Shown here in pieces: positions 44,058 through 44,485 of a stretch of 64,000 nucleotides of DNA. Both the position numbers and the translations under genes were made by a program. Every line of letters starts with the position of its first letter. Within the stretch, counting starts at the first letter, position 1. The notes beneath the pieces were generated by a model that searched no databases, was not told where the DNA came from, and saw only the letters and a program-made list of their open reading frames with translations. The stretch is from Salinirubrum litoreum (lineage in GTDB: Archaea; Halobacteriota; Halobacteria; Halobacteriales; Haloferacaceae), in NCBI RefSeq assembly GCF_020567425.1, contig NZ_JAJCVJ010000002.1:1157068-1221067 (forward strand), given 5' to 3'.

Positions 44058-44485
44058 GACGGCGAGTACCACGCGAGCCACGCGATTTTCGGCGGCACAC
44101 TCACCAGTCAGACGGGCGGGCGCGAGTTCATCTCGCGCCGACGGTTGCAGGTAGGCACGCACGCTGAACCCGACTGGTCCACCGGGTGTTGCACGATTGG
44201 TCACGCAATCGCCGGGTGGGACTGAAAGGGGCCGGCGTCTCGACCCCGCCCCGACGCACCAAGCAGAGCGAGAGCGAAGCTCTCGCCAGCAGTCGGGCGA
44301 CTCCCGTGTCGCCCGACAACACTGGACTGAGCGAGAGCGCGGAGCGAAGCGACGCGCTCTCGTGAAGGAAGCGCGCAGGAAGTCGCGGCGGGTCGAGACG
44401 CCGGGGGCTTTCACCTCTCGCTGTCCGCGACCGATTCGACCCAGTTCCCGCCGACCGACTCAACACCAGCTATCCCGTCACCGAC
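44058..44485. other. 428-bp intergenic region holding a structured element
   Basis: No protein gene is supported. About 190 bases of it (44223-44413) form the palindromic structure listed next. Bases 44058-44222 include gcgcgagttcatctcgcgcc (44117-44136), a further short palindrome. Confidence 0.7.
44223..44413. ncRNA. Putative structured RNA or palindromic element: closing stem with three hairpins
   Basis: Direct inspection gives a closing stem in which ccggcgtctcgaccc (44232-44246) is fully complementary to 44390-44404. The stem is extended by tgaaag/ctttca at the outer ends (44223-44228 and 44408-44413) across a 3x3 internal mismatch, and by gcc/ggc inside. Enclosed are three perfect hairpins: 44268-44286 (8 bp, loop gaa), 44292-44317 (10 bp, loop tcccgt) and 44332-44362 (10 bp, loop of 11). 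This multi-branch design suggests a stable RNA, though a DNA-level palindromic element is possible. The strand is undetermined because the fold is near-symmetric. Confidence 0.55.

Follow-up and report, generated by a model that had tools for sequence, protein, structure and literature searches.

A nested hairpin element between larE and a GNAT gene

The window analysed here, a stretch of 64,000 nucleotides from the Salinirubrum litoreum genome, carries a nested hairpin element at 44223-44413, flanked on one side by larE (TIGR00268; 43188-44057, + strand) and on the other by a GNAT gene (PF00583; 44486-45076, - strand). The two genes are convergent and the element lies between their 3' ends, in agreement with the intergenic placement proposed in a first-pass annotation of the sequence, which is borne out by gene calls and domain matches. 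Every stem named in that annotation is also present. CCGGCGTCTCGACCC (44232-44246) and GGGTCGAGACGCCGG (44390-44404) form a perfect 15-bp stem, hereafter P1, which is lengthened on the outside by six further pairs (44223-44228 with 44408-44413), located beyond a GGG/GGG internal loop (44229-44231/44405-44407), and on the inside by three further pairs (GCC at 44248-44250 with GGC at 44387-44389). The stem encloses three hairpins, of 8 bp (44268-44275/44279-44286), 10 bp (44292-44301/44308-44317) and again 10 bp (44332-44341/44353-44362). The predicted fold of 44223-44413 (-122.8 kcal/mol) is more stable than that of dinucleotide-shuffled sequences (-84.4 +/- 4.6 kcal/mol; z = -8.35), with none of 200 shuffles matching it, and the minus strand of the same interval yields a good fold as well (z = -6.96). 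Four conserved G tracts, contributed by a foot at 44214-44220 and by the internal loop (44229-44231 and 44405-44407), constitute a candidate G-quadruplex closing the stem.

A blastn search of the source genome with 44180-44430 returned 75 matches on several contigs, many of them full length, at 73-90% identity. The alignments among these own-genome copies start at 44093-44137 and end at 44424-44465, so that the unit in the window spans about 370 bp and the conserved sequence extends past the limits first drawn, to about 44093-44464. It comprises the following features, the conserved central part being designated core B:

44093-44464, + strand: whole repeat unit, made up of the upstream module, core B and the right flank, delimited from own-genome copies
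44097-44178, + strand: lineage-specific upstream module, present in about two dozen own-genome copies
44103-44109 and 44172-44178, + strand: closing stem of the upstream module (ACCAGTC/GACTGGT), enclosing a hairpin (44119-44126/44132-44139)
44179-44213, + strand: spacer separating the upstream module from core B, from the copy alignment
44214-44418, + strand: core B including the accessory hairpin module (covariance model R1, 84.3 bits, E = 1e-14)
44214-44220, + strand: GGGTGGG foot, which has the form GGGYGGG in 127 of the 138 elements
44224-44228, + strand: outer helix, 5' strand GAAAG, pairing with CTTTC at 44408-44412
44229-44231, + strand: 5' GGG of the GGG/GGG internal loop
44232-44246, + strand: P1, 5' strand (the 15-bp stem of the first-pass annotation)
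44260-44265, + strand: conserved CAAGCA loop, after which the accessory hairpins are inserted
44266-44319, + strand: accessory two-hairpin module (the first two hairpins), missing from minimal copies
44332-44362, + strand: core tip hairpin (the third hairpin)
44390-44404, + strand: P1, 3' strand
44405-44407, + strand: 3' GGG of the GGG/GGG internal loop, preserved in 137 of the 138 elements
44408-44412, + strand: outer helix, 3' strand CTTTC, pairing with GAAAG at 44224-44228
44413-44464, + strand: right flank common to own-genome copies, continued in other copies by 22-24 bp tandem repeats

The closing stem of the upstream module is invariant across own-genome copies, and hence covariation neither supports nor refutes its pairing. 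In the right flanks of own-genome copies (e.g. L003, L008, L025) the tandem repeats of 22-24 bp, of which TGCGACAGATTCGACCGAGTTCTC is an example, are expanded to numbers that vary from copy to copy. In many copies (e.g. L002, L013, L029) about 500 bp of the left flank is taken up by long low-complexity tracts of the GCGACAGCACC and CCGCGACAGC types together with a reverse-strand instance of a motif, designated motif A, that recurs in composite elements.

Covariation in core B

Minimal copies of core B, about 105-150 nt long and taken from the source genome and from other genera, share the consensus GGGYGGGACUGAAAG-GGG-[P1]-..-CGACGCAAGCAC-..-[tip hairpin]-..-GAGCGCAGCGAGUC-..-[P1']-GGG-CUUUC, which combines a long stem and the tip hairpin with purine-rich loops and a strictly conserved GGG/GGG internal loop. 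Comparison of own-genome copies reveals that the spelling of the outer stem varies from one copy to the next and that the partner strand varies to match, while the unpaired segments remain constant. An RNAalifold analysis of 30 minimal copies identified 33 pairs, 23 of which present compensatory changes, with 96.4% of the alignment cells paired. The covariation score of this alignment (0.464) was not equalled by any shuffled alignment (0.145) and dropped to 0.062 or less when the partner strand was slid. A larger, model-fitted alignment of 92 copies gave compensatory changes at 27 of the 33 pairs and a covariation score of 0.578, versus 0.156 for shuffled alignments. Compensatory base changes, which the first-pass annotation had proposed to look for in homologues, are thus found in the stems of core B in excess of both shuffled and slid controls, one of the properties of a structured RNA family. 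The suggestion that the element might be a stable RNA was in this respect partly right, the core showing the covariation of a structured RNA.

Within the source genome alone, P1 occurs in about eight paired alleles, and pairing over 10 bp is perfect in 22 of the 28 own-genome copies that lack a stem insert. Other copies of the element carry extra hairpin modules within either P1 strand. The accessory two-hairpin module of the window copy is found at the same position, after CAAGCA, in other genera (L041, L044). Core helices are kept by compensatory change, and optional hairpin modules sit at fixed loops. Double-hairpin elements are known from fungal mitochondrial DNA, and the insert at 44266-44319 is similar to them as a GC-rich two-hairpin module that is present or absent at the same loop, a likeness of form only. 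The strand on which the structure acts was also addressed through the ratio of G.U to A.C pairs. This ratio was 115:23 in the model-fitted alignment, and most of the excess disappeared in a model-free count over the first ten P1 pairs (24:16, p = 0.27, or 19:9, p = 0.09); strand asymmetry is hence not used here as proof of RNA.

Distribution and composite organization

Core B is dispersed in the source genome in at least 45 copies. The covariance model detects about 46 matches in this genome at E <= 2e-5, a number that rises to 55 at E <= 1e-3, and within the 64-kb window it matches only the copy at 44214-44418. Across the class, 197 of the 244 Halobacteria genomes sampled, and 65 of 75 genera, contain core B according to the model (E <= 1e-6), often with ten to more than forty copies per genome; the remaining 47 genomes gave no match at that threshold. 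A sample of 148 genomes drawn from the whole phylum yielded 21 hits, every one of them within the Halobacteria and none in the 124 genomes of other classes. The search for haloarchaeal copies that had been proposed for this element therefore recovers it as a repeat both in the source genome and across the Halobacteria. Core B also matches 149 haloarchaeal plasmid records. A viral origin was considered and rejected, as GGGYGGGACTGAAAGGGGC is absent from viral contigs and no B-like DNA occurs in phage records. Rfam 15, searched at the gathering threshold and at E <= 1, has no match in the window and gave only two miRNA noise matches (E 0.45-0.69) in six other element loci. A structured element found in about 80% of the sampled Halobacteria genomes is thus without an Rfam entry, and the covariance model eases both its annotation and its search in existing RNA-seq data. 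Neither the signature sequences of the element nor its topic were found in the open-access papers searched, and it may have been described elsewhere under another name.

The first-pass annotation had also contemplated a regulatory leader. In the source genome, the orientation of the element with respect to its flanking genes is distributed over the four arrangements as 11, 9, 9 and 8, that is, randomly, and the genes on either side of the window copy converge on it, which speaks against a leader; cis-regulation was rejected on account of the random gene orientation. Its intergenic location and its position between convergent gene ends in the window would suit an element that terminates or attenuates the transcription of neighbouring genes in cis, but the near-equal frequency of the four orientations and the change of neighbours with each copy make this explanation, which we disfavour, highly improbable. 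The position next to larE is not conserved either: among 80 larE loci from other species, none carries core B directly downstream of larE, two carry it on the opposite side of the gene, and one has a weakly scoring match about 700 bp downstream. Dispersal without positional conservation is accordingly a property of the family.

Core B usually forms the right half of a composite whose second domain lies close upstream, at 10-39 bp. One type of composite has an inverted copy of B as its left half, separated by a gap of 21-28 bp in nearly all of at least 15 loci. In a second type it is motif A, ending in GGCTGGGGAGG and located 10-39 bp from B. In the source genome the left half consists of lineage-specific modules, such as that at 44097-44178, upstream of which a motif A on the reverse strand and repeats of the GCGACAGCACC type are often present. 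No consistent promoter was found upstream of own-genome copies, and the gap between head-to-head B-B pairs is too small for one. In one genus (g14; L113, L115, L119, L120, L123, L126, L129) many copies present a TATA-like ATTTATAA about 30-40 bp past the 3' end of B, which may be an outward promoter, an inward promoter or the trace of a site preference.

These data bear on whether each B with its upstream domain could be a noncoding RNA gene whose product binds a haloarchaeal protein, the whole forming a multi-copy family of trans-acting small RNAs for which mobility is secondary. The strong covariation, the near-invariant purine-rich loops, the GGG/GGG loop, the retention of the element across the class and the preservation of pairing in diverged copies of a single genome are all consistent with such a family. 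We nonetheless consider it unlikely, in view of the lack of a consistent upstream promoter, the narrow gap of head-to-head pairs, the lack of positional conservation and the 47 Halobacteria genomes without a match.

Mobility, plasmid linkage and interpretation

Presence and absence of composites differ among close relatives: an A-B composite inside about 450 bp is present in five species of one genus and missing from two others. In the genera g23 and g24, B-B composites of about 320-430 bp, without a transposase gene, end in inverted repeats of the GGTACTGTTTAGAT type. Among 14 such composites, three are flanked by perfect 8-bp target duplications and two by duplications matching at 6/8 positions, and four more show a 7/7 duplication, read from the flanks, if one end is moved by one base; in a control, 0.5% of mismatched flank pairs reached at least 6/8. 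IS6 elements generate 8-bp target duplications, and IS6-type (DDE_Tnp_IS240) transposase genes in the genomes G082 and G044 have ends of the same type as the composites, one of these genes being flanked by a perfect CTAGTACC duplication. Based on the shared ends, the 8-bp duplications and the short, near-identical copies, the B-B composite of g23 and g24 is therefore a MITE of IS6 type, and IS6-type transposition has taken place in these two genera. Four copies in G082 (L218-L221), whose ends are inverted repeats of the form GGTACTGTTTAGAT...ATCTAAACA(G/C)TAC(C/T), are more than 99% identical over most of 377 bp (about 350-377 bp), after which the similarity ends abruptly; they point to recent activity of this 377-bp composite. 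The composites resemble the IS6 family in their GGTACTGTTTAGAT-like terminal inverted repeats and 8-bp duplications, and differ from it in having no transposase gene and an interior made of two B cores; most members of the B family, including the window copy, lack these ends.

The own-genome copies are old and diverged. They are 60-75% identical over about 800-1000 bp and have low-complexity flanks, so that no boundary or target duplication can be defined for them; boundaries were likewise not definable for the composites of G014. The right flanks of own-genome copies lack the IS6-type end motif and the source genome (G000) has no PF13610 match for an IS6 gene; the window copy is thus not itself an IS6-type MITE. 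The earlier proposal of a palindromic mobile element is likewise partly right, the family being dispersed and mobile in relatives.

Transposase-free mobile repeats of haloarchaea have been described in Haloquadratum walsbyi as MITEs, PATEs and SMRs, with MITEs defined by a target duplication and by terminal inverted repeats like those of a known transposon, a definition that the g23/g24 composite fits, and with PATE palindromes related to IS605-type transposons (PMC3119063). The B family belongs to this broad class and differs in its conserved, covarying core. An origin as PATE or from IS605/IS1341 was rejected on the basis of gene neighbourhood, none of the nine tnpB and three Y1 genes of G000 being near any element copy. 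REP/BIME sequences, which are intergenic, present in many copies and associated with a RAYT gene, consist of hairpins that carry a conserved foot at the 5' end and are paired head to head across a short spacer. The B family shares the head-to-head pairs, 5' foot, short spacer, intergenic location and many copies, but B cores are 3-5 times longer, and assignment to REP/BIME with RAYT was rejected, as no copy lies near the Y1 genes (C2:1, C2:12904 and C1:1707883).

The IS6-type anatomy in two genera and the perfect hairpin inserts at many places could also be accommodated by a purely selfish MITE family, in which the covariation would arise from template-switch (quasi-palindrome) repair of hairpins with neither selection nor any role as RNA, and the non-significant strand asymmetry of the model-free count is compatible with this account. 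Template switching, however, sits poorly with loops that stay near-invariant while stems vary, with old, diverged copies that are still paired, and with a single core kept across the class in composites with different ends, and the account appears rather improbable to us.

On plasmids, core B is linked to a particular gene. At each of six plasmid loci that were examined over their full length, B lies near a divergent gene for a protein of about 290-300 aa, the C-terminal part of which has an OB fold like that of replication factor A or SSB (RPA-like). Among 35 plasmid records listing both features, B lies 438-553 bp upstream of the divergent RPA-like start in 26; six others have it on the same side but farther away, and three do not. 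In plasmid PHS2 a gene for an ATP-binding protein is located between the two. The interval of about 450 bp between B and the RPA-like gene contains further conserved, hairpin-rich sequence, and the gene itself recurs in 190 haloarchaeal plasmid records (e.g. pHME132, pHMA155, pHALXA02, PHS2; L210-L215, L217). One explanation of this linkage is that B acts at the DNA level as a single-strand structure which RPA-like proteins handle, for instance as a signal in replication, transfer or priming, with the plasmid copies next to the RPA-like gene being functional and chromosomal ones derived. The recurrent distance, the hairpin-rich interval and the SSB-like OB fold would agree with it. Dozens of chromosomal copies, however, have no RPA-like gene, and the linkage may reflect common descent of one plasmid backbone; we take this explanation to be decidedly improbable.

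On balance, we favour the reading that the element is a class-wide haloarchaeal, non-autonomous, modular and structured intergenic repeat, each copy of which acts as a folded strand, likely RNA, and which is moved in trans. The comparative sequence evidence suggests a previously undescribed repeat that probably acts as folded RNA within the transcripts that carry it. Under this reading, the transposase would act in trans, being supplied in g23 and g24 hosts by ordinary IS6-family elements, and the repeat would be moved by whichever transposase fits its current ends. Each copy would be a folded single strand, most likely RNA in the 3' UTR or intergenic transcript carrying it, where it could contribute to the stability, processing or insulation of the message or be bound by a host protein. 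Selection would act against the loss of pairing copy by copy, so that old copies would come to differ in stem letters and yet stay paired. Points that weigh against this reading are the lack of a consistent promoter upstream of own-genome copies, the absence of space for one in head-to-head pairs, and the failure to find IS6 ends or an IS6 gene in the source genome. A more tentative version, to which we give clearly less weight, is that B is an undescribed functional domain of noncoding RNA or single-stranded DNA in nearly all haloarchaea, built on a stem that the GGG/GGG loop and the GGGYGGG foot would clamp, possibly as a G-quadruplex favoured by the multimolar potassium inside these cells. 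Such a domain would have been captured by different transposons and linked on plasmids to an RPA-like protein, and its dozens of copies would be kept folded by a host or plasmid function and not by selfish spread alone.

The closest parallels among small repeat families are BOX, RUP and SPRITE of Streptococcus pneumoniae, which lack a transposase, are nearly confined to the pneumococcus and its close relatives and were judged likely to affect co-transcribed genes (Croucher et al. 2011, PMC3049150). Like them, the haloarchaeal family has many dispersed intergenic copies with extensive secondary structure and no transposase; unlike them, it is class-wide, shows strong stem covariation and combines its core with varied partners and ends. 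It accounts for part of the seemingly empty intergenic DNA of haloarchaea. If its role is that of an RNA, it would rank with the most abundant structured RNA domains in archaea; if it is no more than a parasite, it exemplifies a fold retained throughout an entire class.

An additional gene was encountered on the plasmids and considered as a mobilizing enzyme, an option that was set aside, with nothing indicating that it acts on B. This gene (L210:1327-2328, L212:1457-2419, L214:1323-2456, L215:1399-2361) often stands beside the RPA-like gene and encodes a protein that combines a C2H2 zinc finger, three to four copies of HNH_repeat and HNH, and that resembles a free-standing homing endonuclease.
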